From Paramarasmius palmivorus (Eukaryota; Basidiomycota; Agaricomycetes; Agaricales; Marasmiaceae): DNA of 64,000 bases. Made by a program: the position numbers and the translations under genes. Shown in pieces: positions 1 to 64,000 of the stretch. The notes beneath the pieces were generated by a model. The model searched no databases. It was not told where the DNA came from and worked only from the letters and a program-made list of their open reading frames with translations. The stretch spans positions 1 through 64,000 of the forward strand of contig JAYKXP010000185.1 in the NCBI GenBank assembly GCA_037176845.1. Direction: 5' to 3'. Position 1 is the stretch's first letter. Each line of letters begins with the position of its first letter.

Positions 1-1
1 C

Positions 2-638: not shown

Positions 639-640
639 TT

Positions 641-3900: not shown

Positions 3901-4828
3901 ATCTTCAGATCGTACTCTCGGTGCGGAGCAAGCTTCCAGGACAGATCCTCGTTGAAGACGGATGCGAACTCGTGATAAGGAGGTGGAATAGCAGACATAT
4001 CAACCGGCTCAATGTCGCTAGATTTGGCGGCTAAGCTCGGCTCCGAAGGATCCTGGGCCCAGAGGGTATACTGCTGGGAGCCAGGCTCATTGCAGGCACG
4101 GAGGAAAGCTCCGGCCGAAACAAGAGTGATAGGAGCAGGAGCAGCGCGAGTTTCGGGAAGAGTGTAGACGGGTTCGTACGGCCAGGAAGGCTTATGTGGC
4201 TTTCTCGTCCGAGGAGGAGTCGAACGATCTGGCAAAGCGGAGGTGGACGAATCTGACGAGGAGTTGGATGCGGCCGAAGCAGGTCGCGGAACTGCAGAAG
4301 GAGAAGCTGCGTCGTGGTGCCGGAATGTGATACTGCCATCAGCCCAGTTAATCAACGGATTGTGGTGGGTGAGCCAGTTGTATCCTAGTACTACGTTGCA
4401 GTCGGAATCTAGTCGGGTGACGTAGAAGTCGAGGTAAAAGAGATCTCCGGAGCCGAAACGGATAGGAAGAGTGACCATCTCAGTGATAAGCGTACCGTTT
4501 GAACCGTCTAGGAGTTTGAGTCGCACGGGAGGTATCTGCTCTGTGGGAATAGAGTATTTACGGACGTAGTCACTATCTATGAAACAGTGGGAGGATCCGG
4601 AATCTACGAGAGCAAGCAAATGTAGGAGTAGGGTTTGGAAAGGGGAAGAACAAGAAGTAGAAGGTTTGGATGCGGACAATGTATCTAAAGCAATATTACA
4701 AGACAAGGGAACGCGTAAAGACTGGCTAGAGAGAGCGGCTGCATTGAGAGTGACTTCGTGGTAGACACCAGAAGGCTCAACGCAACTCCGAGCTGGTGTC
4801 GAATCGTCGGAGCCGCGCTCTAATTTTT
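967..4828 (-). pseudogene. pol: Chromovirus A Pol: protease, RT, RNase H, integrase, chromodomain
   Basis: Pol polyprotein of a Ty3/gypsy chromovirus. Going down the minus strand: aspartic protease DSGSSHC (near 4605), reverse transcriptase with YLDD at 3411-3422, RNase H (about 2950-2700), an HHCC zinc-binding integrase N-terminus (about 2300-2150), DDE core including TSDRG (near 1900), and a chromodomain (about 1200-1010) with the RYLVRWAGYEG signature. The frame breaks near 1820. Compared with the homologous pol at 58085-61504, about 19 nt are missing there, removing the residues just before the third catalytic residue (the E of GQTE) and shifting the rest into another frame (1776-967). 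Otherwise the frame is open, so the copy is young but inactive unless the deletion is an assembly error. Pol lies in the -1 frame relative to Gag. Confidence 0.93.
4820..4828 (-). other. Probable -1 frameshift site between Gag and Pol of chromovirus A
   Basis: The gag stop codon TAG (4820-4822) directly follows a run of five A residues and a T on the minus strand. The -1 frame is open across this point and continues without a stop into the protease. This fits Gag-Pol made by -1 slippage on the A run. The site is not a textbook X XXY YYZ heptamer, so the mechanism is inferred. Confidence 0.45.
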
Positions 4829-43014: not shown

Positions 43015-46000
43015 TGGTGAGAGATATGTTCCCCCGAAATTTGAATGTGCTGCGGGTGAGTATGAAGCTTGGAGGGAATGTGCTGTAAGTGCGCTGAAAG
43101 TAGTGATGTAACAGCTGCTTGTGCCGGGAAGAGCTTCGGCCCAGTTCCAGCGTGAGAAAACTGGCCATCAAGGTCCGCCAAGTGTCTGCCAGGCTTTTGT
43201 TATTATTGTAGTGCACCCTGCTGGTTTTTCATTGAGTGTGCAATTTCTTAGTCGGAAACACTATGCTCCACTTCCATTATATCACAATTCTGGATGCTAA
43301 ATTTTGATGTTGCACTATCCTCTGTTTTTACAAGATAGATATATAGATCAACTGCTCAGTTTTCGCTTATTTAGATTAGATGATTAAGGTGCTATCATGC
43401 AATACGTTAACGTGCATTTTATGTGTATATAGTGAAGTGGAATCAATGCTTCAGCGTTGCGTCGCCACTACGGTAATGAGTCTGGTAGGCCAATGGTTCA
43501 ACCCTCGCACACTCCATTATTTTTCTCCTAGATATAATGCTACTTCAGCGACATATGGTGCTAAGCCCACAATACCAAAACAGTCCAATGAAGGTACACT
43601 TGGTATGGTTTGAATATGGTCCCTTAATGTTAGAACACACACAAGTTATTGAGTTTTCAACTTGCTATAATAATATGTACATTCATTCATTATCACGGAC
43701 TCCACTGATACCCAACGACTTATTTGTCCTCTTCCGTGCTCGCGTTCCTTCAATTACCTCAGCTTCATCAAGCGCTAGCGCATCTCCAGTCCGGCAACGC
43801 TTCTTCGTCTCCTTGACATCATGATGAGGCTCTGGGTCGGGTTCCAATAACGGTGAGGGAGGCGCCGGAAGACGTTCATCAAATCGGTTTGGACTACTAG
43901 GAGGGGAGGGGACATCAAGGAGATCATCGAATTCAAATGGAGATAGAGATTGTTGCATTGGCTCCTGGAATGAGGTAGTGGTAGCATTGAAAATGCCACC
44001 GCTCGGGTCTGAGGTGTGTGTGAATGATACCTCATCCATAGAATACACGTCCAGACCGGAATAGCCGCCTGCGCTGTCGTTGCCATCGAAACCAGAGGAA
44101 TGTGAGAATGTGTCTGAATGTCCACCTTCGGAGAGATACTCCGAATCAGAAGGTAGTGGTTCCATCTGAAAGTCAGATAGACTTCAAGACTCAGAGTAAC
44201 TGGAGACAAGATTTTCTATACTGACATCAGAGAACAGGGAAGATGTGGAAACAGTGTCCGGCAAGCTATAAAAACCCACACCTTCTCCAACATGACCACT
44301 ATGGTTGTCAGGCCACAGAAAGCCACTATCAAAGAGGTGCCCAGAGCCATATTCCTCTGGAATTGTGCCTACGTGATCATGACCCAGACTATCCTGAACA
44401 GGAGCAGAGAAACTGCCCTCAGCTGACCCAAGTGGCATATCGAGAAAGCTGAGGTCAAACTGATCAAAGTTTTCTCCTGGTGTTTCGATGAGCGGTGTCT
44501 CATCAAGAGGCAATCCACCAAATATGTTGAAGTTCCCAGCAACAGAAGCTGCTAGAGTCAGATGTTCATGTTAGCAAGGTATTGAACGTTAAATGAAGGA
44601 GCTCACCATCTGGCCCATCAGGGACAGCATCGCTGGTGATCCCATCCACCGCAGAAGTACCGGTTTGCGCCCCGGAATTTGTATTAGAACTTGTATCATC
44701 TAGAGGAGGAGTTAGTTCATAGCGGTAACACAATAAGTTAGAGCGCACCAATTACTCCGCTACTTGAAACCTTCACACGGCCACTTGAGCTAGATGTTGA
44801 CTTAGTAGCCTTTTGTCCAGGAGTCCTCACAGTTCCTGAGCCCTGCCTCGCCGATTTGAGCTGCTCTTCAAGCTCTTTTCGACGTGCCTTCGCCTCCTTC
44901 TCAGCTTGCTTCTCCCTTTCAATTGTTTCTTGTAGCTGTGAGATAGTGTTCGCTTGTGCCGTCGCTTCCCGTGACTTTTCCGCTGCCTTCGTCTGACGTT
45001 TGGTGCTACGTGAGAGTTGCTGGTGCAAACCGTTATGCAGGTTTGTCAGAATACCTGTTTGTTCTGCAATCTCGAGCTCCTGAATAACCTTCAAGTTGAT
45101 AATCCGAGCTCTGAAGACATGGTCAGGTGATTATTTAGATAGCTGCACATAAGAATACATACTTCTCGATCCCTTCCACTATGGTAAGCTGAGTATCAGT
45201 CAAGTCGTTGCTCCAGTGATGCTGTCCTTCTCCTATATTCGTGTCATTTGGAGTGCACTTCCAATTGTCACTGTGCATCAAAGAAAATGAGGGGATAATA
45301 CATGGGAGAATCCACACATGGAGTCGTTTATGATCCCACCATGCTACATTCACGAGAATCGCTTCAGTAAAGGAACAGATTACAACATCAAACTTACCTG
45401 TGAGCTTCTTGTTGTTGTGGTGACGAACCCATTCATCGAACTTGAGTAAGTCTGATTGTGACTTGATATGTGTCATGAAGGTGATAAGATGTTGGTAGTC
45501 CTGTGATGAAAGTTGCGATCGAAAGTCATTAATACCCCTAGTCATAATGTACAATTAGATGAATGAAAACTAAAGCCATATCAAGAGGACACATACCTTT
45601 TGACGTGAACTAGACACAACTTGACAAAGTATTGAACTAGAACAGAGGATTCCTCAGTGGCAATCCCACTAAAGCTCGGGTCATTAGTCTTGAGAAAAGA
45701 CGCCCCTGCACCAAGAACCTGAGCAGCTTCCATGTCGGTATTCATACATAATAGGTTTCCATCCTTTTGAAAGCGCTTGAAGGCCATGGGCCGACCCGTA
45801 AGGTTGAGGACAAGATCACAGACACCATCAAACATGAGAGTAAAATACTCGGTTGAGGCTCGATTGAGGTAGACGCGCATGATGGTGACCGCTGGTACAT
45901 CATAGTTTGTCAGTGAATCAAAAGGTAATAGAAATAGTGGACAAACCTCGAGTAAGCTTCTTGTAATAGACTACCATTTCCTATTCATTGAGGTCCCGTA

Positions 46001-47546
46001 AACGTTTAAAGGCAGTATCACCTTCAAATGATGTGACCTCGTGGATGAGCTTGAGCAAACGCGTATAACATGTGAAGATCAGCACACCACCGGTGCCGTC
46101 AAGTGTGACCTGATGCACATAGCGCTCCTCCGCAGGCTTGCTCTGATCACGAATCTGTAGCTCGACGACACCTGATAAACAGTCACTATGAATGATCAGA
46201 ATTTGACTAAGGACATTCTCACCAGGGATTCCTAGACCTTGAGAATGAACATTCAGTTTCTCCTTGCGAATGATTTGTCGCTTAGCACGTTTGTTCTGCA
46301 GTGCTGGCGAGAACTCAGCGGGCATTTTCCCATCAAGAAGAATGCTTGTTGATGGCGCTGTGTCAAATTAATTTAGTTCGTCTAGAGTAAATGATCCGTA
46401 ACTTCATACCATTATCGACTTTCTGTACCGTGGCACCTAATACTCCATGTGCTCTCACAACATTCGCATACGCTGCTTGAACGGCATAAGTTGTCTTTTC
46501 GACTACTGGAATTGGGTGGGAGTGGGCAGTATTATGTTTGCCATGTATAATAATCGCCTTGCGTACTGAAGAATCCATAGGAACATAAATTGTCTGGGTC
46601 GCTTTACATCAATGGGAAATCATCAGTGACTTTGGCTGAGTGACTCCGTTGACAATATGAGGCCGATCTAGGGTACATTTAGCAACAGCATGGGAAGTGA
46701 AATAGATAGACGAAATATTACCGCAGGATTGTTTCCTTGCCCCAACACGGGGTGATACGATATGCCCACAAGGAGGTGTATCTTTTGAGGAGTCATCACA
46801 CAAACGTTGATCGTTCATAACTTTGATGAGTGTTTTGACATCAATGATGGCGGGAATAAAGTGATAGAGATGACCAGATGAAGCATCTGTTGAACGGTTG
46901 CAAACCATCATGTGCCGACGGCTTGGTTCATCCTGTACGAAGTCAAGTGAACATTGGGCAAGACTTAGATCATAATGTTACCCACCTCAAAACCCTTCAC
47001 AACTTGCTGGCCATCACAAGGATTTCCAGTCTTGTCGACTGCTGGACACTTCTTTGAATATACGACATTAAGAAATCTATGTTATTGAAACTGAGATTGA
47101 GATACACCAAGCCCCTGTTACTAGACTCACGTCACAGCAGCACTTTCCTTGGTTCTGCCTTCCTGCGCTCGACTTTCGCCCTCCAATCTTAAGATAGCAT
47201 CCCGTTGTGATGGATCAAGGTCAAATCGCGAGACATTGAGCACGTTCGAAGGAACTTGGCTACATGCAAAGACACCATTGCAATACAAACGAGCATGGCG
47301 ACACTCAACCTTAGGACAATCAGGTTCAACTTGAACCTTCACCTTGGAGTCACTGACACCAGTGTAGCTAGTCCAAGAGTCGTTATCCTAGGATAATGTA
47401 TGTCAATCCACCATATCATATAGTTGAGTAACAGTTTACCTGATTTTTTATAAGATTATCAATGTTTATTATACTGCCACCTTCGCCTCTAATATCCCAC
47501 TGGCAGCTGTCAGTGAGATCAAGGAGGAACGCTGTAGGAGTTTGCG

Positions 47547-50500
47547 TAGGGATGCCAACGGGTCGGGCGGGTCGGGTATGGGTCCAAACCTGAACCTGAC
47601 CTGGAACCCGCGGGTTTGACCCGGTATTTTTTATTTTATTTTTGACACTTTTATCGTACTTTATTGTATTATAGAAATACTTAACAGAGCTCATAGGAAT
47701 ATTTACAGCTAAATACTATTGTTTCCGGTGCTGAATTGGTTGTTGAGAGGGTAGTGATTGGGCTGATCAGATGACGTCATATTTAGGCGCCCGTCGGTCC
47801 GGCCTAAGAAACTCCCCAAAATTGAACATTTCAGAGGTCTCTCAGTTTGATGTGTGTAGAAATGTATAGTATATAGTTATACCTACTAATTTGAATGCAA
47901 AAAATGATTAAATTCCATTAGATTCTCAAGTTTAAAAATTTATATAGGACCCGTTCGGGTTACTGGGTCTACCCGTGGCCCAGCTGATTCTGTAAAATTA
48001 TTGCAAAAGTACCTAATAGTTATCAGATCGGCTTTTGCAAAGCTACAGGATAACTACTTTTGCAAAAGTAGAGGACAAGTAGTCAAGGCAGATAAAAGGT
48101 AGGTCCGCTTTGGGTGCTTCTAAATTGGGAAGCATTATTCCCACACCTTCTGGAAGGGAAACAGGCCGCTTTTTTGAGATCTGGAGATATTCCCACACCG
48201 CTTTTGGCATCCCAAAATGGAAGGTGCTCTTTCCATGATGTAACAGTGCGCTTTTTGGGCGCTTTTTTTGCGGAAAAATTATTCCCACACCTCCTGACAT
48301 CATCTGGGTCTCTACTCCGCTTTTGGCTTCCCAAAATGGAAGGTGGCCTTACCTCATCATTTTCCACCTGGAATCAATGCATTGAGGGGCTATTGGGGCA
48401 TGCTGGGGGGCTATAAAAATCGCATTTTTGAGGGAATATGTTCTAATATGTTCCAAAACCATGCCCCTGCAATTGGGGGGCAGGGGAATGCAAAAAAAGC
48501 GGTCCAAATATGGTAATTCAGGAAAATGGCCTATTGGATCTTGGGCTATAGGCCAGATATTGACATGGGGTAAGTTGGAGGACCTAGATACATTAAATAC
48601 AAGCCTGGGGACACTAAATAGTACATAGATTAGTGGGATAATGGTGCTTGAATATCAAAAATACTGAAAATCTCCGAAATTAGGGGAATAAAATTACAGG
48701 ATGGGATGTAGTGCAGCTAGGGCTTAGATATTGTGAATCAGAGATGATATATATGTCCCCTTGCTTCGTTTACAATCCTGGAGAGCTGCCTATTTTTCCA
48801 GATTTATTACAGCTAAATTCGCTTTTTTTGGACATTGGTAATACTATACCACAGGGAATGATTGGGATGGGCTAATTCTTGTTCATAACCCACTTTAGTA
48901 TGTATAGATGTCAACTACATAGCTGCCCAAGCACTCCTGTATGTGCAACACCTTGTTCAATCCAATGTATTGTACAGTTATGTAATATGGGCAGTAACAC
49001 ATGAATAGCACCTCAGGGAAGCATCCCAGCACCAAGGGGAGTTCAGAATCGAGTTCAGGCACCCAAAATACACTTTCCTACCATGAAAGGACATTTTCTG
49101 AATACATCTGTATGTTGCTACATAAAAAATACATAAAAAATCGCATTTTTAGGAGTTTTTTTGTACTGGAGCATGGGGATTGCTCCTAAAATCACCAAAA
49201 ATGAATGAGAGACCTTTCACTATGCATAGAACAGGAATATAAATTGCCTCCATGAATCCCATGACAGGAATCCATATGCCAGATGCATCAATTCCTGCAC
49301 AATTACAGAAAACATGTACTATGGATGTAGTATTGCAGGGATTGATCTGGGAGCTTGGAGAACCTCAAAATCGAATTCAGGGTGAAAAATCAGTCAAGAA
49401 CATATCCAGGGTTGAAGGAAATCCATCCACAATTGACTTCAATATGCATACATCAAGTTAAATGCACAAGTATATGTGCAATATATGTTAACTATAAGCA
49501 TAAAACTTGTCAGATACATATCTCAAGCTACAGTGATTGGATTCCTTTCAACCCTGGATATGTTCTTGACTGATTTTTCACCCTGAATTCGATTTTGAGG
49601 TTCTCCAAGCTCCCAGATCAATCCCTGCAATACTACATCCATAGTACATGTTTTCTGTAATTGTGCAGGAATTGATGCATCTGGCATATGGATTCCTGTC
49701 ATGGGATTCATGGAGGCAATTTATATTCCTGTTCTATGCATAGTGAAAGGTCTCTCATTCATTTTTGGTGATTTTAGGAGCAATCCCCATGCTCCAGTAC
49801 AAAAAAACTCCTAAAAATGCGATTTTTTATGTATTTTTTATGTAGCAACATACAGATGTATTCAGAAAATGTGCTTTCATGGTAGGAAAGTGTATTTTGG
49901 GTGCCTGAACTCGATTCTGAACTCCCCTTGGTGCTGGAATGCTTCCCTGTGGTGCTATTCATGTGTTACTGCCCATATTACATAACTGTACAATACATTG
50001 GATTGAACAAGGTGTTGCACATACAGGAGTGCTTAGGCAGCTATGTAGTTGTCATCTATACATACTAAAGTGGGTTATGAACAAGAATTAGCCCATCCCA
50101 ATCATTCCCTGTGGTATAGTATTACCAATGTCCAAAAAAAGCGAATTTAGCTGTAATAAATCTGGAAAAATAGGCAGCTCTCCAGGATTGTAAACAAAGC
50201 AAGGGGACATATATATCATCTCTGATTCACAATATCTAAGCCCTAGCTGCACTACATCCCATCCTGTAATTTTATTCCCCTAATTTCGGAGATTTTCAGT
50301 ATTTTTGATATTCAAACACCATTATCCCACAAATCTATGTACTATTTAGTGTCCCCAGGCTTGTATTTAATGTATCTAGGTCCTCCAACTTACCCCATGT
50401 CAATATCTGCCCTGTAGCCCAAGATCCAATAGGCCATTTTCCTGAATTACCATATTTGGACCGCTTTTTTTGCATTCCCCTGCCCCCCAATTGCAGGGGC

Positions 50501-51038
50501 ATGCTTTTGGAACATATTAGAACATATTCCCTCAAAAATCTGATTTTTATAGCCCCCCAGCATGCCCCAATAGCCCCCCAATGCATTGATTCCAGGTGGA
50601 AAATGATGAGGTAAGGCCACCTTCCATTTTGGGAAGCCAAAAGCGGAGTAGAGACCCAGATGATGTCAGGAGGTGTGGGAATAATTTTTCCGCAAAAAAA
50701 GCGCCCAAAAAGCGCACTGTTACATCATGGAAAGAGCACCTTCCATTTTGGGATGCCAAAAGCGGTGTGGGAATATCTCCAGATCTCAAAAAAGCGGCCT
50801 GTTTCCCTTCCAGAAGGTGTGGGAATAATGCTTCCCAATTTAGAAGCACCCAAAGCGGACCTACCTTTTATCTGCCTTGACTACTTGTCCTCTACTTTTG
50901 CAAAAGTAGTTATCCTGTAGCTTTGCAAAAGCCGATCTGATAACTATCAGGTACTATTGTAAAAGTATTACCACTTCTGGTGCGTGGCCCGATAGACCCG
51001 GTAACCCGATGGGTCGACCCGGCCCGTTGGCACCCCTA
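47547..51038. mobile_element. hAT-like foldback element, 3.5 kb
   Basis: Starts TAGGGATGCCAACGGG and ends with the complement of TAGGGGTGCCAACGGG. The 8-bp target duplication AGTTTGCG is perfect (47539-47546, 51039-51046). TIR type and duplication length match the hAT superfamily. Inside are two inverted arms of about 1477 bp (47948-49424 and 49539-51015) around a 114-bp spacer, so nearly the whole element can fold into a hairpin. No transposase ORF; short mirrored frames only. Insertion lies within a coding exon of the DDE gene. Confidence 0.93.
47948..51015. repeat. Near-perfect giant palindrome within the foldback element
   Basis: Arms 47948-49424 and 49539-51015 are reverse complements with few differences, as shown by mirror-image frames (for example 48043-48303 minus and 50660-50920 plus). 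Repeated ATTCCCACACC and CCGCTTTTGG-type words occur within each arm. Confidence 0.93.
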
Positions 51039-52643
51039 AGTTTGCGGAATGGGCCATAGTGATGGTAAAAAATTCAATCGCTCGAGACGTTGCACCCGCA
51101 CTTCGGTTGTGATCGAAAATGACGTGCGTCCAGTGCAAAGTTCCGAATGTTGCCCTTCGTCTTCCCAATGTGTGTCGGACTTGACCCAGACGAGGTCAGT
51201 TTCTGCAAAGTTGTTAATGAGGGTGAACTACAGCCACGGTAGAAGGACATCATAACCTATGCGGAGAGGCTTTCGGTGCTTCACTCAATGACGAATTTGC
51301 TGTTGATGATACCAAAGTCAACAAATGACATTGTTGGCAAAGTAGATGTGCACATACCTTGCTTTGGAACTACATTCTCGCCCTCAGATTCCTCCGAAAG
51401 TATCTCAAATACCTCCCGACCATTTTCGATGTGAGTGACAGTCCTACCAAGGCTAGTGAGCATCTTTCCTGGAAAATAGCCAAGTACGCACTTGACTTCG
51501 GTACCGTGACTGAAATGCACTTCGCTTTCACCCTCGCTCTGCTCAACCTTAATGGCCAATTGCGGAGTAGCCAATGAAGATGATGCCGCCATGACAGCAT
51601 GAAGGTTGGTAGCTGTATCTTCGGTCTTGATAGCTGAAACCTTCTCGGGTTGGGGAGCTGGCACCTGCGGCATGTCAAGGTACCTTTTGAGGGCGTCGAT
51701 GTTGATCCAGTCGTATCCTGCAAACCATTCAGGGTTCGCTTCGACGTAGGAATCATTGAAGATCTGAGAAAATGATACGGTAAGCTTTTGGAATACACCG
51801 GCAAGTGGTCATAACATGTACCGTTTTCCGAAAACCATCAAGAACAGAGGGTTTGAGCATGTCAATGAATGCCACATCTGTGAGGGAGAGTTTTGGCATA
51901 TCAGCTGAGGTTGCGGGAGTTGGCTCTCAATATTTATACCCTGTTGCAACTACAGATCGTCGTGGTCGGCACTCGGTACTCTGGATGATATTTTCTGCAA
52001 AATCTTTGTCCTATCTACCACATGTATCACCCAGCGGTATAACCGGTAACTTGTAAATCAAACTGCTCTATAAACTCAAGTCGGGTATGAGAAGAAAGGC
52101 CAATGAAATTGTTAAGTGACTGTATTCGGTACATCTGGGTTGGGTATATAGTCAAATATGCACGGAGAGACATGAGATCTAGGATGGCTTGAAACAACAT
52201 TGGTAGACAGTGTTGGGTAGCGAATTTGGCTTTTTGGATCTTCGTTGAGACCTGATAAATCCTTGAGACTGGTAATTGGAAAAACAGATAAAGCTGCGCA
52301 CCTGAGCCAAGAACAAAGCATGGTTGCACCTTCCCAGACCTATACTCAATGGAATGATGGATAGACGATAGATGAAGAGTAGCAGAGGATTCAGTCAACT
52401 AGATTCTGAGTTGGCAGCTCATCGTGGTCGTAGGCAGAAAAGGAATGATGACGCGTTCATCGTTCCTTAGCCGAGTGGACGGTTCCGAAAGGAAAGCCAC
52501 GTGTGCAGTGTCCGAAGTCACCGCAGCTCCGATGATCAGCTCCGAGACCTGCAGCACTTAGGCAAATTCAACAGCACACCTGCAACCAGACGTTGTACTT
52601 CATTTGCAGCACATTGGAATATCACAAGATGGAATTCAGAGTA

Positions 52644-52700
52644 GGTGTGCTGGTAGTTGTCGCGGTGTGCTGGGTGTGCTGTAAGTTGTCATACCCTGTG
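52644..52700. repeat. Right terminal inverted repeat of the 9.7-kb transposon
   Basis: Complement begins CACAGGGTATGACAACTTAC; three GTGTGCTG words on the plus strand. Followed by the target duplication GGATATCC. Confidence 0.85.
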
Positions 52701-52708
52701 GGATATCC

Positions 52709-53640
52709 CAGTTGTATATCCTCTGAGCCAAAGCAACTGCAGTCTTGAGACCTACATCCTCAACTCTGTCATCGTAATCACCACCTGCCAGGAGAACAAT
52801 GAGAATGAATACAGACTGATTGAGGTACCAAAGTTCCTTGTCATTCTCAAAGGCTGTGGTGGTATACAGATCAATGTGGTCATGAGTGACTCTTTGACTT
52901 GGAGTCTGTTTACGTTTGCCATTACCATTGTTGTCATCAGGTCTGCAGATAAAGATGTTCAGCAAAGATCTATACAACATCATTGGCATTACCGTTTAAG
53001 GCAGATAACAGTCTCTGCTCCAAAGATGAAAGTTCTGCCTCAGCTTCTCCTGGTGCCTAGTAGCAAATGAAGGTATTGGTATTTGATGTAAAGAGCAATA
53101 GAGTTGATCTGTACCAAGTGGACACTAAACCCAAAGGCTCGTATCAGAGCTTTTGCCTGATCATAGAATCTGACTGGTGCATTGATGAATGGCTTCTCAG
53201 CAGGTCAATCTGGTCCGTTGAATACGAAGATGAGTTCAACTTCAAGGTTCAAGTAGTGGCATAATCGGTAGAAGAATGGGACAAGGGGGTCTAGGACTCC
53301 ATGTAAACCATTTTGAGAGACAGCACTGGTGTAGCGAGCAAGGAGATTTCTACCACAGAATCTATATCACTGATTGCAAATGAGCAGATGAAATGCACAC
53401 CCTGGATCCACTCTGAGAACAAGATATCTTGACCCTTGCCTCTTAGCGTGAAAGCCATCAGATTTCACAAGATGAAGAAGTGAGCGTGTTTCATGGCTTG
53501 AGCCAAGATGATTCTGACAAGTATCAATGTTAGATTCCTCATCATATGAATGGTCTGGACATACCCAATACCACTTGCGTATGCCCATTGTGCGGAGAAG
53601 AACAGAGGGGTAAAAACCTCTGAGATTGTGCAAGCAATAC
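52709..53640 (-). pseudogene. GEN1/XPG-like nuclease, 5' half
   Basis: Minus-strand blocks in family order: SDGFHAKRQGSRYLVLRVDPG (about 53460-53400, the XPG N-region with its catalytic Asp), FFYRLCHYLNLKVELIFVFNGPDRP (about 53280-53200), APGEAEAEL (about 53057-53030, the XPG I-region acidic motif), LLAGGDYDDRV (about 52805-52770) and LKTAVALAQ (about 52755-52730). Several frames are needed and stops interrupt (for example TAG before APGE and a stop after ANDVV). The gene then runs into the transposon end at 52700; the rest is at 41953-42949. Substrates of the family are branched DNA structures. Confidence 0.75.
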
Positions 53641-54015
53641 TTATACTAGCTAATATGAAACACCTCCTTTTCCAAAAAACTAAAATCAAATAGTACATTT
53701 AACTAGTATCCAAGTGATACCAGCAATAGTGTAGTACAATGAGAGAGGATAGTACGATACTATTAGCCATACACATTAGTCTATTCCAAAAATGCTCTCA
53801 TTCACTTATCCACAACTGTTCCTGCCTTCTGTGCACTGATACGACAATGACAGAGTTCGTTCTCGGTTGCGGTCATACACAGGTGTTTGCCCGTGGCTGG
53901 ATTGGTGAACTCGGCACAGAACTGTTCTTCCTTGTGGGATAGATAGTACTCTGCGATATGCTAATTAAGACATTATCAGCTGGATATAAACAAAACTCCA
54001 CAGTCAGCTTACCTT
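53641..54015. other. Spacer between nuclease and SAP-domain genes
   Basis: No clear coding signal. Both flanking genes are on the minus strand. Confidence 0.3.
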
Positions 54016-55230: not shown

Positions 55231-55674
55231 TGTCATGACCGTACTACTCGGACACTGACATCCGGAGATAACCTCGTGTCCGGAAGTACCTCGGAAGCAT
55301 CAACATGTGTTTACCTTCATCCGGAGCTTACGCCTCATGTTCTATTATCTTCCGGATATATGCCTCATGTCTATACTTGTCGTTTTCCGATATTCTGATA
55401 TGTTCCCTTATTTATATATTCCTTTGTTCTGTTCCGTTTAGAGATACTTGGCACCGTACTTGTATATAAGACATAGGATACAGTTCCTGTATCTCTAACA
55501 GAATAAAAAACGTTATCTCTGCCAATCTCCGTACTTCCTCTATCTTCCTATTCGCTCTCAAGCCGTGGGTCAGTAGGGCTGTTGTGTAGAACTTCAGCAA
55601 CTGTTACCTTCCGAGGTCCTCCACCTTCTGGTGGTGCTCCGGACCTCTTTTATACCTCCGGCACGGATCTGACA
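55231..55674 (+). repeat. 5' LTR of chromovirus B
   Basis: 444 bp, TGTCATGAC to ATCTGACA (terminal inverted repeat TGTCA/TGACA). TATATAAG at 55463-55470. The predicted transcript start near 55496 reads TAACAGAATAA. Compared with the 3' LTR, most differences are single-base insertions or deletions. Confidence 0.93.
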
Positions 55675-55688
55675 GTATTATTCTGTTA
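55675..55688 (+). promoter_or_regulatory. Self-priming site (PBS) of chromovirus B
   Basis: GTATTATTCTGTTA directly after the LTR is the reverse complement of TAACAGAATAATAC; the 3' LTR has TAACAGAATAATA at 63884-63896, 34 nt past its TATA box. No tRNA 3'-end complement is present. This fits Tf1/sushi self-priming. Confidence 0.68.
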
Positions 55689-55701
55689 ACCTGCTGAACT
55701 C

Positions 55702-56637
55702 ATGGCATTCTCTGGTCTTTTTCAACCCACTCGTATTCAAGAACCTATCTCCACTCTTACCGCCAAACAACCTTCCCAACCCCCTGAACCTCGACTAGTT
55801 GCTCAAGCCCAACAACGAGACGAACGTCACCAACGTCGTCAACAAGGACTCCCGGCATCCGGGGAACAAGCTGCGCGTGCTGCACGCAAACCAAAGCAGT
55901 TTCGTACCACCGCGGAGATCCTTCATACTTCTCATGTCGAGGAAGAAGACACCATTGGACCCGAACTTCCTGGTGCCTTTGGTGAGTCTATCACTTCCAG
56001 TTTAGCCAACTGAGGACGTCAAACCATGTATACGGATACCATATCAACCGCGCATGGTGATTTTACTATTCAGACTCCTTCTAGACCTACTCGTCTAGAC
56101 CTACCTGGCCGTCGTGCTTCTGCGTCTACACCCACTGTCGAACCTGTCTCCGCCGCTCCAGTTTTCAGCTCAGGACCTCATAGGTCTCTTGGTAGTCTGT
56201 TTCCGGAATTTCCTGAAGTTCCGGAGACACCAACTCGTCAGGCTGGCACCAGAGCGCCTACAGTTCCTCCCGGCGAGACAGATGGTGGTGGAAGGCCTTT
56301 GGAAGGCGAACCCGAGGTAGAAGTCGCCGGTGCAGCCCCAGGTCCTCCTCCTGTTCAAACCCAAGTTGGGGATGACAGAGGACCGACAGGGAATGGCGAA
56401 GGTGATGGTGACGGAGATGCAGACTCGGTGGGTCCTAGTAGACCTGGAGGTGGTGGAGGTGGTCCTCCTCCGACTCTCCCGGAGGTGGCGGGTGGCCTTC
56501 CGGTGGGCCAGGCGGTGGCCGGGGCAAATAGGATGCCTCTAGACGAGATCGATCGGACGATCCCGACGATGCTCAAGTCTTTAATGAGTGCGTTCAGTAA
56601 CATTGCTTCCGCACTTTTGCTATCTCCTCAAGGTTGA
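55702..56637 (+). pseudogene. gag: Chromovirus B Gag, N-terminal part
   Basis: ATG 55702 lies 27 nt after the LTR. Like Gag of A it has a basic RDERHQRRQQGLPA segment and ARKPKQF, then an acidic patch. An in-frame TGA at 56011-56013 is followed by the same frame, a Pro/Gly-rich linker with GGGGGGPP (about 56450), and a stop at 56635-56637. Confidence 0.8.
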
Positions 56638-58084
56638 ATATCCTCCTGCTCTGAGTTCCTCTAGACCCAAATCAAACTCAAAGAACCCAATACTTTCGAC
56701 GGTAGTAACCCTATAGCTCCTACTTCCCGATGGCTTGCCTCCATAACTCTCCATTCAACGATCGTCCGGAAGCCTATCGGTATGAAACTTCCATGGTCCT
56801 CTTTGCATATCCTACCTCCGAGGCAACGCACCAGAAGTGGGTTCAACATGATATCCTTGGACGTCCTGGATCCTTCCGCCTGCTTGACTTCCAGTTTTCA
56901 CATTGCCTTCGTACCGGGAGCTTACCGAGAACTTTGGCCCTCGGAACCTTCGTGCGGTAAGCTGAAGGATTCTATGGACCGCCTCAACATGAAGGAAGCG
57001 ATCGCATTCAGTCTTACGAACTTGAAGTTCAAGGACATCGCTGTGGAGTTGATTGGGAGAGAAAGAATGCTGTCACCTATCAGTACTATCGTGGGCTTCG
57101 GATCGTCTTAAGACGATATCTGTCGAAACGGAAAGACACGGAAACTTCTCTGAGCTGAGTACTGTTGCCCGTCGTCTCGATGATTTCTATTGATTGTCCA
57201 GCGGGAGTAAGCTAAGCGCTCAGCAGAGCATTAACTCCTCTCTGGTTCGAAGGGAGGTAAATCTGGAGCTCTGGTTCGGAGGTAACAAAGGTTCGAGTTC
57301 CGGAAACTCCAATTCCTAACTCCAACTCTAATTCTCTTCCATCCCTCCGGAAAACAACCAGTCGGTCCTCCAGTCTAGTTTCGTCTACAAGCCTAAGGGC
57401 TCTTCGGCAAAACTCCCAAAACCCTTCCTAAAAACTGGTTACAGGGTAAGTCAAGAACGGCAAATTAAGCCGGTAGAGCGAGACGTCGGAAGGCCATCAA
57501 TCTGTGTATGTTCTGTGGAGCTGCAGGACACCGGTAGCGAACTGACGGAAGCGCCTCAAGAAACAATTCCTCTTCATTCCGCTTCGGAAAAGCGGGGCTT
57601 ACGTCTCTCCGAGTAAGACGGACAATGACTCTTCCGAGTCGAAAAAAATAGTCCGGATTCCGGTACCTCAACACCGACCGGAGTCGCGTTGAGCCATCTC
57701 GGGTGTTCTCACGAGGTCACTCTCAACGCTGCCGCTCTTTCCTGTATTCTTTATGGCATTCCCCATACATCCGGACTCCTTTCGGACAGTTTTCCGAGGA
57801 TGTTGTATCACCTGGCTTCACTTCCATTTCCTTAAACTCATAACTCCATTTACTTGATCTTGTTGATTCTGGTTCTTCCCATTGTTTCATAGATCTCTCA
57901 TTATGTCCGAAAAAAACATTATTCCTACCGAAAAAGTTCTTCCTGTGCAGACCTCAAAACTTCTTCGATGGCCTATTTCAACTTTATTGATGAGATGAGT
58001 TACACTTCCCATCCAGAATTTCCTTCCGGAGACACTTCATTCATCTGACTTTTATGTCACTCGCCTGATTCCGACTGCAACCTA
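56638..58084 (+). pseudogene. Decayed capsid, nucleocapsid and protease of chromovirus B
   Basis: Capsid, the zinc knuckle (LCMFCGAAGH near 57505) and protease ([10 protein letters not shown] near 57865, then frame loss) can be recognised in order against chromovirus A, but many small insertions and deletions scatter them over three frames. The decay stops abruptly where the RT frame begins. Confidence 0.75.
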
Positions 58085-61000
58085 GTGCTTGGATACAACT
58101 GGCTCTCCCGCTACAATCCGTTGATTGACTGGGCAGAAGGTAGTTTAACTTTCCGGCACCAAGGAAGCACCCAATCTTCAGTGTTGCTCACTGATGTTCC
58201 GGATACACCACTTAAGGTTCCGGAACCTGTCTCTGTTTCGCCATCCTCCGGTGCTCCTCTTCGCCGGAAGACCAAGTCTTCACCTAAACCGGCTTGGCCT
58301 TATGAGCCCATCTACACCCTACCTGAAATCCCTGCTAAACCTCAACCTATCACGCTCGTTTCCGCTGGAGCTTTCCTCCGTGCATGTAACGAAGCAGGAT
58401 CAAAGCAGTACTGCCTCTATGCAAATAATCCGGACATGCAAGAGGTAGCAGGTAGATCCGGTGACGTTGAACCTCCAGACCTAGGTTCCGTTCCGGAAGT
58501 TTATCATGAGTACGCATCAGTCTTTAACGAAGACCTTTCCTGGGAGCTAGCTCCGCATAGGGACTATGATCTTAAGATCGAGCTCGAAGAAGGCACGTCA
58601 CCGCCTCTTGGACGCATTTATCCCTTATCGGAAGCTGAGCTCAAGGCTCTTCAAGATTTCTTGGATGAGAATCTACGCAGTGGATTCATCACCGCATCCG
58701 GTTCACCGTTTGGAGCCCCCGTACTCTTCGTCAAGAAGAAGAGTGGTGCTCTCCGGTTGTGTGTGGACTTCCGTGGTCTTAACAAGATCACGAAGAAGGA
58801 TCGTTACCCTCTTCCTTTGATCTCCGATCTTCTCGATGCTCCGAGTAAGGCAAAGATTTACACCAAGCTCGACCTCCGTCACGCTTATCACCTAGTTCGC
58901 ATCGCAGAAGGTGATGAGTGGAAGACCGCGTTTAGGACCCGTTACAGTTCTTACCAATGGAACGTTATTCCGGAAGGACTTACCAATGCTCCTGCTGCTT
59001 TCCAACGCTTCGTTAACTCCATTTTCGCAGACCTCCTGGATGTCTGTGTTGTTGTCTACCTAGATGACATCCTTATCTATTCGGAGAATGAAGCAGAGCA
59101 TGAGAGTCACGTTAAGGAAGTCCTCCGACGTCTCAAGAAGCATGGCCTTTTCTGCAACCCGAAGAAGTGCGAGTTCCATGTCTCCGAGTGCGAGTTCCTT
59201 GGCTATATCCTTTCACCCAGCGGCTTCCGAATGGCGGAAGACAAGATCAAAGCTATCATCGATTGGCCTGTTCCGCGGAAGGTCAAGGACATTCAGTCTT
59301 TCCTTGGCTTCTGTAACTTCTACCGACGTTTCATTTACGGGTACAGTGATATCACTATTCCACTCACTCGTCTTACCCGGAAGGACGTCAAATGGAACTG
59401 GTCATCGGAAGCTCAGACAGCCTTTGAATCGTTGAAAGAAGCTTTTACCAGAGCTCCTGTTCTTACGCATTGGGAACCAGATCGACAGATCACCGTGGAA
59501 ACTGATGCATCCGACTACGCTATTGCCGCTATCCTTTCTATTACCCTCGAGGATGGAGAAATCCATCCTGTTGCCTTCCTCTCACGTACCCTTTCCGGAT
59601 CGGAACTTAACTACGACACGCACGACAAGGAATTGCTTGCTATCTTTGAAGCATTCAAGACCTGGCGTCATTACCTAGAGGGCGCATCGTCACCTATTGA
59701 TGTGGTTACGGACCACAAGAACTTGGAATATTTTTCTACTACCAAGATTCTTACTCGCCGACAAGTCCGTTGGTCAGAGTACCTTTCCGCATTCAACATG
59801 GTAATCCGATTCCGACCAGGCAAATTAGGGGCGAAACCAGACGCTTTAACTAGACGATGGGACGTCTACCCTAAAGAGGGGGATACCGGCTACGCAGCAG
59901 TTAACCCACAAAATTTTCGACCCATTTTCACTGAAGAACAACTCATCGCGTCCCTCCGAGCAACGTATCTTGAGGAACCTGTGCTCCACGCAAGTATCCT
60001 TATGGACGCTGAGAAACTTCATTCCGACATTCGTTCAGCACTTTCCTCCGACCCGGAAGCAGTTGCAGGCATGAATCACGCTCAGTCTGGACATCATCGT
60101 TGGTCCGTTGACGAATCTGGCCTCCTTAGGTTAGATGAACACGTTTATGTTCCCGCAGTTGACGATCTCCGACTTCAAGTTCTCAAACATCATCATGATC
60201 ACATCCTTGCCGGTCATTTCGGGCAAAATCGTACTCTTAGTCTGATCCGAAGGCATTATACTTGGCCTAAGATCCGAGAGTTCGTCAAGGATTATGTGCG
60301 TTCATGTCCTGATTGCGGAAGGAACAAGTCGCGTAGACATCGACCTTATGGCCTGCTTAAACCCCTTCCTGTTCCACTACGCCCTTGGGATTCCATCTCC
60401 ATTGATTTTATTGAACAACTTCCAGATTCCAATGGGTTCACTTCCATTATGGTCGTTGTGGATCGTGCCTCCAAACAAGCCATCTTCATTCCTCTTCCGA
60501 AAAAGATTCCCTCCGATGAACTCGCTAGGTTATTCGTTATTCACATCTTTGCCAAGCATGGTGTTCCGAACCATGTCACCTCCGATAGAGGTTCCGAGTT
60601 CATATCTTCCTTCTCCCGTAGCCTTGGGCAGGCACTTAACATGAAGTTGCATTTCACTTCCAGATACCACCCGGAAGCTGATGGCCAAACGGAACGCGCT
60701 AACCAGACTCTAGAACAATACCTCCGGATGTACTGCACCTATCAACAGGACAACTGGGATGTATTGCTTCTGCTCGCAGAGTTCGCATATAACAACTCTC
60801 CGAACGCTTCTACTGGAATATCGCCGTTCTTTGCTAACAAAGGCTATCATCCAAACATTACAGTGCATCCGGAAGTAGATCTTGCTTCCGAGAAAGCACA
60901 CAACTACGTCATGAACCTTGATGAAGTTCATCAGTTCCTCCAGGACGAAATCAGGGCTGCTCAAGATGCATACAAGGCTTCCGCAGACAATCGTCGCATC

Positions 61001-61504
61001 CCTGCTCCGGACTTTAAGGTTGGTCAGAATGTGTATATCCTTGCTAAACATATCAAGACCACACGTCCGACGAAGAAGCTTGCAGAGAAGTATCTTGGAC
61101 CATTTCCTATCATTTCGCAACCCTCTTCCAATGCTTTCACTATCAAACTTCCTACATATCTTTCTGGTGTTCATCCTGTTTTCCATGTTTCCCAGCTAGA
61201 ACCTCACCACCCTTCCGAGATTCCGAATCGCACACTTACTCCCCCTCCTCCGGTGGAAATCGATGATGAAGGCGAAGAACATTTCGAAATCGCTGAAATC
61301 TTAGATTCGAAGCTGGATCGGAGGTACAAGAGGTGTCCTTTACGGTACTACGTCCGATGGGCTGGTTATGAGGGGACGGCTGAGGAATTCGACTGGGTAG
61401 CAGCCGATGATGTGAATGCTCCTGAGGCTGTTGGTGACTTCCATGCGAAGCCCAGCAACAAAGACAAACCTGGTCCTCTTTCCAAAGTTCGTTCCTCCAG
61501 TTAG
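58085..61504 (+). CDS. pol: Chromovirus B reverse transcriptase, RNase H, integrase, chromodomain
   Basis: 1139 codons without interruption, entering within the protease-RT linker (LGYNWLSRYNP). RT palm with YLDD at 59057-59068, RNase H ([15 protein letters not shown] near 59500), the HH-CC integrase zinc motif (about 60190-60320), DDE core (SIDFIEQL near 60405, TSDRGSEF near 60580, GQTER near 60685, the last two 35 residues apart), a GPF/Y-like module (about 61030-61200) and a chromodomain (EIAEILDSK to RYYVRWAGYEG, about 61285-61420). All catalytic residues seen are present. No local start codon context is evident, so it needs the upstream frames that are now broken. Chromodomains direct integration to marked chromatin in related elements. 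Confidence 0.95.
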   Translation: MLGYNWLSRYNPLIDWAEGSLTFRHQGSTQSSVLLTDVPDTPLKVPEPVSVSPSSGAPLRRKTKSSPKPAWPYEPIYTLPEIPAKPQPITLVSAGAFLRACNEAGSKQYCLYANNPDMQEVAGRSGDVEPPDLGSVPEVYHEYASVFNEDLSWELAPHRDYDLKIELEEGTSPPLGRIYPLSEAELKALQDFLDENLRSGFITASGSPFGAPVLFVKKKSGALRLCVDFRGLNKITKKDRYPLPLISDLLDAPSKAKIYTKLDLRHAYHLVRIAEGDEWKTAFRTRYSSYQWNVIPEGLTNAPAAFQRFVNSIFADLLDVCVVVYLDDILIYSENEAEHESHVKEVLRRLKKHGLFCNPKKCEFHVSECEFLGYILSPSGFRMAEDKIKAIIDWPVPRKVKDIQSFLGFCNFYRRFIYGYSDITIPLTRLTRKDVKWNWSSEAQTAFESLKEAFTRAPVLTHWEPDRQITVETDASDYAIAAILSITLEDGEIHPVAFLSRTLSGSELNYDTHDKELLAIFEAFKTWRHYLEGASSPIDVVTDHKNLEYFSTTKILTRRQVRWSEYLSAFNMVIRFRPGKLGAKPDALTRRWDVYPKEGDTGYAAVNPQNFRPIFTEEQLIASLRATYLEEPVLHASILMDAEKLHSDIRSALSSDPEAVAGMNHAQSGHHRWSVDESGLLRLDEHVYVPAVDDLRLQVLKHHHDHILAGHFGQNRTLSLIRRHYTWPKIREFVKDYVRSCPDCGRNKSRRHRPYGLLKPLPVPLRPWDSISIDFIEQLPDSNGFTSIMVVVDRASKQAIFIPLPKKIPSDELARLFVIHIFAKHGVPNHVTSDRGSEFISSFSRSLGQALNMKLHFTSRYHPEADGQTERANQTLEQYLRMYCTYQQDNWDVLLLLAEFAYNNSPNASTGISPFFANKGYHPNITVHPEVDLASEKAHNYVMNLDEVHQFLQDEIRAAQDAYKASADNRRIPAPDFKVGQNVYILAKHIKTTRPTKKLAEKYLGPFPIISQPSSNAFTIKLPTYLSGVHPVFHVSQLEPHHPSEIPNRTLTPPPPVEIDDEGEEHFEIAEILDSKLDRRYKRCPLRYYVRWAGYEGTAEEFDWVAADDVNAPEAVGDFHAKPSNKDKPGPLSKVRSSS

Positions 61505-61710
61505 TTTCAACTTCCAGAAATATTCTGTTCACTTATATCTCTTCCGAAATTCTTATTTCACTTCCGTTCACACTTATACTTTCAAGAAACTTTTTATATT
61601 TACAAGTCCTTTCTTCCGACCATCCACTACATCTGGTGCGTATTGTATGTGTCCGTGACTCTATGTACAACAAAAAAGGCAAGAAACGAAGAAGTCCCAA
61701 GAGCCGCTAT

Positions 61711-63401
61711 CTACTCCTCCGCTCCGGCATCCTCTCCCTCCTTTTCACCCTCCGCGTCCTTGTCAATGTCCATATCCTCCGTCTCCTTGGCTTTGTCCTT
61801 CTCTCCCTCCGGTTCCTTATCCTCCTCCGGTCGACCTCCTGATCCGCTTGCCTCTTGCGCACTTCCCTCCGGAACAAAGTCTCCATTTGCCTGCCTCCGG
61901 AGACCCAATGCAGCCTTCACTCCGTTCAAAAGCTGAATCACAAGGGCTTCCAGCCGGAGGTTGCTATCAAGTAGCTCTTGATTGCTCCGGAGAAGTTGAG
62001 CGTTCTGCTCCTCCAGTTTCTCGATCCGAGCACCGAGACTTCCGAAGCTCACGCCCAGAGCATATCGATCCTGCGAGGAATTTGAAGTTCCTTCCTCCAC
62101 TGGTTCCGGTCGTCTGGGTCTACGGGTGCGCTTCTTCTTGACCTCCGGAGACGCAGTAGTATCACCAGCCTGGCTTCCAGGATTCGAATCAGGAACTATT
62201 GCTGCCGACTTTGGGGTGACCTTGACGCCAAAGGAGCATTTAGACTTGCGGAGGTGGCATCCCTGACATCCGGTGACACCCTTCTTGACAGCATCCGGGT
62301 TCGGAGCGTAACACTCCTTATTGTGATCGATGCATTCGGAGCACCCTTTGCCGGAAGCAACGCGTTTGTATCTGTGGTCGTTCCAGTCGACTGAGATCTC
62401 GGAGTCGTCCGAATCGAAGACAACTTCTGGACGGTTTTCTAAAGCCTTCTCGAAGGCAGTTTTCTCCGAAGCCTTGCCTCCGGTGCGACGTTTCTATAGA
62501 GAAGCATTAGGACAAGTTCAGTCTTCCGAAAGAAACGTACCTTGGGTTCCTTCGGAGGCTCCACGAATTGAATATCGTCATCCTCCGCCTCTGCAGCCTT
62601 TCGCTTGCTTTTCCCCTTCTTCGAAGTACCTGCCTCCGATGACTTGTCCTCGGAAGCACGGAAGGAAGAGGCCTTAGAGGCTGCTTCCGCCCTCCGTTTC
62701 TCCTGAGCCACCTTCCGCGACTTCTCGGCCCTCTCCTGGATTTCCTCTATGGTCGGAGGTGCACGTTGTTGTTGCTGCTGCTCTTCCTCCCTCCGTTTCG
62801 CAGCCCTAGCCCAGATCTCATCCTCCTTCTTCTTTCTCTCTGCCGCCTCTTTCTCCTTCCGGATCCTCTTCTCCTCCTCCTTCTTCTCCCGCTCTTCCTC
62901 TTCCCTCTTTTTCTTCTCCTCCTGCTTCCGGCGTTCCTCTGCCTCCGCAGCCCGCTTCCTAGCCTCTTCAAACCATCCCTTCATCCGAGTGTCCTCCGCT
63001 TCCTCATAGGCTGACATCCAGACATGCCATGCTCACAGCGCCGCTGGACGACTTGCTCGTTGTGTCTTCCTCTCCCGGTTCCGCGCCCGGACCTCGCAAC
63101 ATTGAACTTGGTAATCTTGCAGACCTGCTGCATTCTGGTCTTCAATTTTCACAATGTCGTCCTCATTCGCGTCGTCCGGAACCTCCTCCATTTCAAACTT
63201 CGGAGGAAGCGCTTCATCGTCGTCAACGGAGGCAGGGAAAGGTGGTCGTTGCCGAGGATAGACCTCCGGCATCAATGAAATGACCTCCGGATCGATATAC
63301 GTCCGGGAGGCGTGAGGATAGGTGAAGCCCTCTTCTATGGGCACAGGGGCGGAGGGACGGTCTTCCGGTTTGCTGAATGACAAGTCGTTGCTTCCAGACA
63401 T
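61711..63401 (-). CDS. Antisense Zn2Cys6-like coiled-coil protein of chromovirus B
   Basis: A complete three-exon model: 63401-63125, 63010-62541 and 62493-61711, with GT-AG introns of 114 and 47 nt, giving 509 codons with no stop. The N-terminus is acidic. Exon 2 encodes a long Lys/Glu/Arg helix (about 62980-62800) and a basic KGKSKRK patch. Exon 3 carries C-X2-C-X6-C-X14-C-X2-C-X6-C (about 62345-62230), the Zn2Cys6 spacing of fungal transcription factors except for a long middle loop, then KKKRTRRPRP, a leucine-rich coiled coil (about 62060-61930) and an acidic tail. This is the usual layout of a dimeric nuclear DNA-binding regulator. It lies between pol and the 3' LTR, in reverse orientation, like the gene at 2-638. 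Binding and role are inferred. Confidence 0.82.
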
Positions 63402-63451
63402 TGTTGCAGTTGGTGGGCAGAAAGAGGGGACTTCGTCAAAAAGTAGTGGTC

Positions 63452-63490
63452 CTTTTATAGTTTCAAAAGTTAACCCGGTTACATCACGTG
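63452..63490 (-). promoter_or_regulatory. Promoter of the antisense gene in chromovirus B
   Basis: The minus strand has an E-box-like CACGTG (63490-63485) and TATAAAAGG (63459-63451) about 50 nt before the ATG at 63401. This gives the antisense gene its own transcription start inside the element. Confidence 0.6.
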
Positions 63491-63600
63491 ATTTCATTTA
63501 AGATTTTCTAGAAACTTTCTATGGATCTTTAGATCTTCATTGTCCTCCGGATTTAGGGATAGCTTGCTTCCGGATATTGTAACTTCCGGTACGGAGCTAA

Positions 63601-63614
63601 GAGGGCGGGTATAC
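63601..63614 (+). other. Polypurine tract of chromovirus B
   Basis: GAGGGCGGG followed by TATAC directly before the 3' LTR; expected plus-strand primer. Confidence 0.5.
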
Positions 63615-64000
63615 TGTCATGACTGTATACTCGGACACTGACATCCGGAGATAACCTTCGTGTCCGGAAGTACCTCGGAAAGCATCAACATGTGTTTCCT
63701 TCATTCCGGAGCTTTCGCCTCATGTTCATATTATCTTTACGGATATATGCCTCATGTCTATACTTGTCGTTTTCCGATTTCTGAATGTTCCCTTATTTAT
63801 ATCATTCCTTTGTTCATGTTCCGTTTAGAGATACTCTGGCACGTACTTGTATATAAGACATAGGGATACAGTTCTGTTAACTCTAACAGAATAATAAACG
63901 TTATCTCTGCCATCTCAGTACTTCCTATATCTTCCTATTCGCTCTCAAGCCGTGGGTCAGTAGGGCTGTTGTGTAGAACTTCAGCAACTGTTACCTTCCG
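63615..64000 (+). repeat. 3' LTR of chromovirus B, cut by the window edge
   Basis: Matches 55231 onward: TGTCATGACTGTATACTCGG, TATATAAG at 63850-63857, TAACAGAATAATA at 63884-63896. About 60 bp are missing at the end. Confidence 0.93.

Follow-up and report, generated by a model that had tools for sequence, protein, structure and literature searches.

A predicted zinc-cluster protein encoded antisense within Ty3/gypsy-type retrotransposons of Paramarasmius palmivorus, and its possible link to short words over-represented in those same elements

An extra gene lying antisense within a fungal LTR retrotransposon is said to have been described by Zhao in 2011, i.e., brtn in the Boty element of Botrytis cinerea, an ascomycete. 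Plant LTR retrotransposons carry antisense genes as well, in the place between pol and the 3' LTR that is considered here, with function unknown and with no clear protein similarity described by 2020 (PMC7264820). Retand elements, for their part, carry TRP28, which is predicted to be DNA-binding (PMC11963269).

A quite different precedent is VANC, of the VANDAL elements of Arabidopsis, a protein that is element-encoded, that binds short words, and that removes methylation along the element (PMC5735166; PMC10398659). The protein and the words both change between related elements, with the protein doing so rapidly (PMC5735166).

The DNA considered here, termed the window, is the first 64,000 nucleotides of contig C185 of Paramarasmius palmivorus, i.e., positions 1-64000, from a genome of 68.3 Mb in 393 contigs. 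A Ty3/gypsy-type element occupies positions 55231-64061 of C185, flanked on either side by AGAGC, a target-site duplication of 5 bases. Features are as follows:

1-5478, minus strand: second element, gamma-type, truncated by the contig start, with pol at 1015-3978, minus strand
2-593, plus strand: gamma-type antisense gene fragment of that second element, cut off at the contig start
55226-55230: target-site duplication AGAGC, its second copy lying beyond the window, directly after the 3' LTR, at contig positions 64062-64066
55231-55674, plus strand: 5' LTR, containing 5 TCCGGA
55231-64000: TCCGGA, 34 times, and CGGAR, 164 times (both strands), dispersed over LTR, gag, pol, antisense gene and promoter
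55675-58201, plus strand: gag/protease region, broken as read from sequence in the initial annotation
58202-61501, plus strand: open pol frame of 1100 codons, with reverse transcriptase, RNase H, integrase and a Tf2-1-like SH3 domain
61711-62493, minus strand: last exon of the antisense gene, 260 aa, with predicted zinc cluster, basic linker, coiled coil and acidic tail
61888-62046, minus strand: predicted long helix (model residues 150-202; pLDDT 90-93 over residues 161-190)
62236-62343, minus strand: six-cysteine cluster, C-x2-C-x6-C-x14-C-x2-C-x6-C, with a basic HLRKSK in its second half
62494-62540, minus strand: intron of 47 nt, GT...CTAAT...AG, conserved in C185, C102, C95 and C321
62541-63401, minus strand: first exon, which includes 63011-63124 and which in C185 has an in-frame stop at about 63033-63035
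62973-63032, minus strand: W/AYE/ED/W motif, common to all three protein types
63452-63490, minus strand: predicted antisense promoter signals, TATAAAAG at 63452-63459 and CACGTG at 63485-63490, conserved across protein types
63615-64000, plus strand: 3' LTR, running on to contig position 64061

Within pol of this element the matches to reverse transcriptase, RNase H and integrase are clear, with that to Chromo being weak (17 bits versus a cut-off of 25.1). The 3' LTR is 94% identical to the element's own 5' LTR, with 15 gap openings and many small indels; LTRs of other copies match the C185 5' LTR at 98%, and the deviant C185 3' LTR could be an assembly error.

With brtn, as it is cited, the likeness is one of description, in that both are antisense extra genes in fungal LTR retrotransposons, with the P. 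palmivorus case differing in that the host of Boty is an ascomycete. The plant antisense genes are similar in position, in orientation, in having their own upstream promoter (Grande), in lineage-wide presence and, for TRP28, in predicted DNA binding (PMC7264820; PMC11963269). The host kingdom and the protein family are different, however, with zinc going unmentioned in the main texts of those two papers, and with neither an element-wide excess of words nor cassette swapping being mentioned for the plant genes in the portions available. Given these plant genes along with brtn, a position between pol and the 3' LTR is thus not new. A search of the literature, thin in its coverage of subscription journals, turned up no LTR retrotransposon from a basidiomycete that is described as having a Zn2Cys6 gene within it, and no element-wide word code for any retrotransposon.

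The initial annotation had proposed looking for the gene in other copies of the family, and it is found in most of them. Taking as a lineage the 14 elements with integrase-region identity of at least 63% to the window element, an antisense gene of the same family lies downstream of pol in 13, i.e., in C185 (the window element), C102, C95, C298, C380, C49, C143, C63, C150 (there 2.7 kb from the pol match), the second C185 element, C157, C166 and C120. No antisense gene was found with the fourteenth, C41, the pol match of which ends short of pol's end, and the fragments on C244 and C190 do not extend to where the gene would be. Three more gene copies, on C28, on C166 near 10 kb and on C321, lack an adjoining integrase match. 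The encoded proteins are of three types: alpha (C185, C102, C95, C321), beta (C380, C143, C49, C150, both C166 copies, C28) and gamma (C63, C298, the second C185 element, C157, C120).

More distant elements, with pol 42-49% identical, have a different antisense ORF 3' of pol in three of the four that were examined (C54, C255, C117), one that is coiled-coil-like and that has a GNMAR motif in common; in the fourth, C104, there is no long antisense ORF within 1.6 kb. An open frame in the antisense direction also follows the C143 copy (C143:35130-37630), and is presumably helicase-like. Homologues of the antisense protein were found in the protein collection from P. palmivorus only, by a method that needs shared 5-residue words and so does not imply absence elsewhere; one such search scored the best 7994 candidates by shared words. 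The viral contigs yielded no homologue of this protein.

As initially annotated, the antisense gene was intact and had three exons. That there is a real antisense coding gene between pol and the 3' LTR is borne out by dN/dS, by third-position bias and by in-frame indels between C185 and C102, but it is the C102 copy that is open, with the C185 copy being broken by its in-frame stop. Alignment of C185, C102, C95 and C321 gives two exons and one intron, that is, the intron at 62494-62540, which is kept in all four copies, stands as annotated, but that at 63011-63124 does not, as this segment is coding. C102 reads through the latter in frame, its dN/dS is 0.10 (C185 versus C102), though with a wide interval of 0.05-0.39, and the W-x5-AYE...ED motif, which is found also in other protein types, begins inside it. 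The proposed first intron is ruled out, then, by the open frame of C102, by an alignment that is free of indels, and by the C185 stop that this intron had hidden. Stops within the segment number one, in frame, in C185 and two in C321, and the gene is therefore broken in these two copies; from the C95 copy the initial part of the gene is missing. The NCBI model of the C102 gene (P0007, 544 aa) is the same as the two-exon reading; C102 and C380 are naturally open copies, with NCBI proteins VNI00_015569 and VNI00_019440, respectively. The intron that remains is of a length not divisible by three, and is marked by splice signals that lie on the antisense strand, such that retrotransposition via a sense RNA would be expected to retain it.

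The antisense gene is under purifying selection at the level of its protein. Between C185 and C102 the dN/dS ratio, the calculation of which had been proposed initially, is far below 1, at 0.14 (0.09-0.20) in the first exon and 0.13 (0.08-0.20) in the second, with 0.12-0.14 for the alpha group overall. The corresponding pairs of values are 0.10 and 0.21 for C380/C143 and 0.18 and 0.14 for C63/C298, i.e., 0.10-0.21 within types, versus 0.34 (0.18-0.51) between beta and gamma (C380/C63, N part). In the antisense frame, third codon positions account for 113 of the 187 substitutions in the first exon and for 83 of the 120 in the second (C185 versus C102), and all five indels between these copies are multiples of three (9, 6, 3, 15 and 6 bases). 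A six-frame control has stops in every other frame, with a ratio above 1 in four of them; the sense frame that has the same wobble positions as the antisense gene displays a low ratio too (0.26 and 0.16). A chance open frame is excluded by the codon-position bias, the dN/dS values and the in-frame indels.

Upstream of the gene, the TATA box and CACGTG motif that had been noted initially are both present. Ten upstream flanks, out of the 16 gene copies, were aligned, and CACGTG is found at -85 to -89 in eight of these, across alpha, beta and gamma, having been altered by one CpG-type change in the other two (C63 and C150). A TATA-like box, one base short in C120, lies 25-31 bases further down than CACGTG in all ten. 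An internal antisense promoter is thus predicted from the conservation of these signals.

Gal4-type proteins recognize CGG half-sites, and in these proteins the basic, DNA-contacting half of the cluster comes first. The antisense product is likely a dimeric protein of Zn2Cys6 type, predicted to bind DNA, and the cluster, basic linker and coiled coil that had been read from the sequence hold up to the extent that six cysteines are conserved and a long helix is predicted; the standard Gal4 layout that had been assigned along with them does not hold, with the cluster lying in the C-terminal half of the protein and its basic half being second rather than first. The likeness to Gal4-type proteins thus consists of six cysteines, a CxxCxx(R/Q)KxKC half, a coiled coil after the cluster and CGG in the alpha word (described below), and the differences of the basic half coming second, of 14 residues between the halves, of the C-terminal placement and of the gene being element-borne. 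An uninterrupted six-cysteine pattern is seen in 10 of the 16 gene copies, with spacing of x6, save that the first half of gamma has x8; in the other six the pattern is cut off, decayed or was not found. In gamma, most basic residues have been lost from the half that presumably contacts DNA.

Matches to Pfam Zn_clus (PF00172) reach 22.0 bits for C185, versus a cut-off of 21, with the second half giving the match (Pfam positions 1-15 aligned with residues 74-88), and fall below that cut-off for C102 (12.9 and 10.6), C380 (15.0 and 13.3) and C143 (13.4); proteins P0008 and P0009 gave no match to this profile. Leucine/asparagine heptads of the long helix are visible directly in the sequence. The structure model of the alpha protein is poor overall (pLDDT 55.7, pTM 0.22), and its structure matches, all of them weak, are Zn2Cys6 proteins. 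For the beta protein a single-sequence model shows long helices and gives no zinc cluster that could be used; PDB sequence searches gave nothing informative. What these observations suggest is a protein that would fold as a zinc cluster, dimerise via its coiled coil and bind CG-rich words.

Among 30 host loci that were fetched, the basic half comes first in 20, i.e., in those in which the Zn2Cys6 pattern was seen. Recent capture of a host gene was rejected as a source of the antisense gene, given that the host Zn2Cys6 genes of these 20 loci have this classical order of halves, that no host relative was found, and that a genome search with the protein of annotated exon 3 returned four element copies only.

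The antisense gene is in addition a variable cassette, its types differing far more than do the pol backbones in which they reside. Values of dS for the two parts of the gene are 0.98 and 0.63 between C185 and C102, 0.62 and 0.34 between C380 and C143, and 0.40 and 0.27 between C63 and C298, versus pol values of 0.059, 0.096 and 0.159, respectively. C185 and C102 have promoters that are 99% identical, the 5' LTR of C185 is 98% identical to the LTR of C102, and C102 and C95 have one gene version in common (last-exon dS 0.04). C380 and the second C185 element are 96.8% identical in DNA over 4.6 kb, consisting of pol and adjoining upstream sequence, though the one carries a beta gene and the other a gamma gene; likewise C298 and C380 are 96.2% identical over 2.5 kb, with gamma and beta genes. 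The beta and gamma proteins, by comparison, are 44-47% identical (C380 versus C63 and C298, N and C parts). With dS of the gene so much greater than that of pol, these are old, constrained gene types within nearly identical backbones. Template switching in the course of reverse transcription is known for LTR elements in general, and is the likely route by which such cassettes would be exchanged.

Alpha elements display a firm excess of CGGAR and TCCGGA, including at silent positions of pol. In the C185 alpha element, counting both strands, TCCGGA occurs 34 times, where dinucleotide shuffles give 3.2, and CGGAAG 47 times, where they give 6.3, and TCCGGA occurs 23 times versus 2.4 expected in 6 kb of C102. 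The window has 39 TCCGGA, of which the alpha element has 34, the gamma element 4 and the other 49.8 kb 1. As the latter is CpG-poor, host loci are the fairer control, and over the 30 loci (92.6 kb) TCCGGA is not enriched (16 versus 26 expected), with CGGAAG plus CTTCCG at 53 versus 39 expected. Shuffles in which synonymous codons are permuted within pol, leaving protein and codon usage unchanged, give 24.5 CGGAR for C185, in which 54 are observed, and 31.7 for C102, in which 66 are, counts that none of 500 shuffles reach. A blind scan over every hexamer in which two places are two-fold degenerate ranks CGGARS first both in the whole alpha element (119 versus 21.8, z 21.4, with 12 control stretches at no more than 10.3) and in alpha pol (z 8.3 for C185 and 9.2 for C102, with five control frames at no more than 6.4).

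No tandem arrays account for these words, which are dispersed, coding DNA included. The words are strand-biased (CGGAA 34 versus TTCCG 55), and in alpha pol those on the complementary strand are spread over frames as 12, 15 and 10, with 12 of 17 on the sense strand being in one frame. Word positions are not clearly better kept between alpha copies, with changes at 9 of 286 and 4 of 264 positions within words, and at 54 of 3014 and 59 of 3036 positions elsewhere. Dense TCCGGA occurs as well at C9:108301-110320 and C9:907430-909428, within LTR-like repeats 1.9 kb apart; neither place is among the DNA matches of the alpha LTR, and each is perhaps a short non-autonomous element with the alpha word.

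A distinct word, CGTACGA/CGGCCGA, is likely present in beta and gamma elements, albeit less certainly than is the alpha word, a lower grading that follows from the blind scan and its controls. Among exact 7-mers, CGTACGA ranks first in each of the four beta/gamma elements scanned (16, 13, 14 and 15 versus 0.5-0.9), and CGGCCGA occurs 18 times in C380 versus 1.3 expected. The pattern CGKMCGA, which was picked after the data were seen, is found in pol 14 times versus 1.9 in C380, 13 versus 3.0 in C49, 14 versus 2.0 in C298, 15 versus 3.1 in the second C185 element and 5 versus 0.8 in C63, counts not reached in any of 500 shuffles; in C143 there are 5 versus 1.1, a count reached by 8 of 500. CGKMCGA is not enriched in alpha pol, nor are TCCGGA and CGGAR in beta/gamma pol, save for TCCGGA in C63 (2 versus 0.5).

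In the blind scan of the whole of beta C380, GKMCGA occurs 71 times versus 17.1 (z 15.5, versus 10.3 for the best of 12 controls). Of the six beta/gamma pols, scanned with codon shuffles, only two score above the best control (C36, z 6.4), namely C380 (z 7.2) and C298 (z 7.0), and what ranks first there is not exactly CGKMCGA. For the whole of gamma C63 a purine-rich pattern ranks first (z 11.3), with CGTACG (11 versus 0.9, z 10.9) just above the best control hexamer (9.6). Controls have excess hexamers of their own, such as ATGATG-like ones in C36 pol (C36:140978-142977) and AAAGCG, 18 versus 2.1, at 46000-54000 of the window. In C28 and C150, which are decayed copies, words are sparse. Strict matching of words to beta versus gamma was not seen, with CGGCCGA occurring 13 times in the C380 module and not at all in that of C63 but 5 times in C298 (gamma) and just twice in the gene of C143 (beta), nor are positions of the beta/gamma words clearly better preserved (1 of 74 changed inside versus 66 of 2083 outside).

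The reading that is preferred here, at a probability of roughly 0.38, is that a selection-maintained, antisense-encoded Zn2Cys6-type protein binds the element's own words and keeps copies open versus silencing. An element-encoded zinc-cluster dimer, that is, would bind CG-rich words spread across its own element, and binding over the whole element would then remove or block silencing marks, keeping copies open against the host. As the words occur throughout coding sequence, recognition of the whole element fits better than does a single promoter switch, and an anti-silencing role may be supposed, more tentatively, over one of LTR repression. The initial annotation had envisaged a DNA-binding regulator possibly controlling its own LTR; a conserved, likely DNA-binding protein is indeed encoded by this family, but words and cassette point to whole-element recognition rather than to LTR-only control. 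The tie between protein and word is a correlation seen at the level of sequence, and several observations fit it poorly: beta and gamma proteins, though only about 45% identical, have CGTACGA in common, with gamma moreover lacking most basic residues of the half presumed to contact DNA; a pure double-strand signal has no need of strand bias; word positions are not clearly better preserved between copies; and the structure model is poor, the C185 copy is broken, and homologues come from one species only.

Phage immunity regions have a cassette-like pattern, and near-identical pol carrying very different gene types recalls these regions. The protein could be, correspondingly, a self-binding repressor that limits copy number by acting on its own LTR and promoter, with new types escaping resident repression, and the 5' LTR does have the highest TCCGGA density of the parts counted (5 in 457 bases). 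The words also fill pol, gag and the antisense gene, however, where a promoter switch needs none, and the quite different C185 and C102 proteins go with LTRs and promoters that are nearly identical, such that the presumed operator did not follow the change in protein; this account seems fairly unlikely. An activator of the element, working at LTR and antisense promoter, would make use of the Gal4-type parts that are present, i.e., cluster, linker, coiled coil and acidic tail, with the words as sites either for it or for host Zn2Cys6 factors, candidates for which are plentiful given that a genome scan places Zn_clus at 129 locations, 97 of them above cut-off. Sites throughout coding sequence are not what an activator calls for, nor is TCCGGA in excess in the 30 host loci, leaving this the least likely of the protein-based readings. 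The dispersal of words and the unchanged LTR between protein versions count mildly against repressor and activator both.

The word excess might instead be unrelated to the protein, arising from biased mutation or repair, from the packaging of RNA or cDNA, or through a DNA-binding protein of the host, which is judged improbable, a touch less so than activation and more so than repression. The words contain CpG, and the elements are CpG-richer (observed/expected 0.92 and 1.10) than is the rest of the window (0.46); strand bias, a word held in common by beta and gamma despite their different proteins, and a beta/gamma excess in pol that is just moderately over controls also fit. The large alpha excess nevertheless survives both dinucleotide shuffles, which keep CpG, and codon shuffles, which keep codon usage, and TCCGGA when reversed gives AGGCCT, which has counts of 2 in alpha, 3 in gamma and 7 elsewhere in the window, with TCCGGA itself having 34, 4 and 1, respectively. 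It is highly improbable, lastly, that the main product is an antisense RNA regulating gag-pol via double-stranded RNA, with the open frame secondary. Antisense transcripts of retroelements can act in this manner (PMC7264820), but RNA regulation requires no open frame, and here there are conserved cysteines and purifying selection on the protein.

The preferred reading, of self-binding that keeps copies open, resembles VANC in involving an element-encoded protein and short element-specific words, both varying between relatives (PMC5735166), with the excess of such words being clear for alpha and weaker for beta and gamma. VANDAL elements are DNA transposons, however, their protein is unrelated, and VANC words lie in noncoding tandem repeats (PMC5735166), whereas those of P. 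palmivorus are dispersed, coding DNA included, and without matching arrays. Binding and demethylation have furthermore been shown for VANC, with the P. palmivorus counterpart being predicted. With these differences it may be said that the present system works like VANC, not that it is VANC.

The role of antisense genes of LTR retrotransposons is still open, according to PMC7264820, and a recognisable DNA-binding motif, signs of selection, a cassette-like exchange pattern and a candidate word, taken together, turn the question of function into a simple binding test. The fuller proposition, that an antisense Zn2Cys6 protein, exchangeable between near-identical backbones as a cassette, and a CG-rich word that matches it and recurs more than a hundred times in the element, silent pol positions included, constitute a first self-recognition code of an LTR retrotransposon, shielding copies from host silencing and driving an arms race, is doubtful, though it is less so than any of the alternatives to self-binding just weighed. 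Should the words be bound, then this would be an independent invention of sequence-specific self-recognition by a transposable element, in a retrotransposon and in fungi, and it would mean that an element is able to place binding sites within the sequence that encodes its own proteins. Such an element, if this is true, could mark and shield its own copies.
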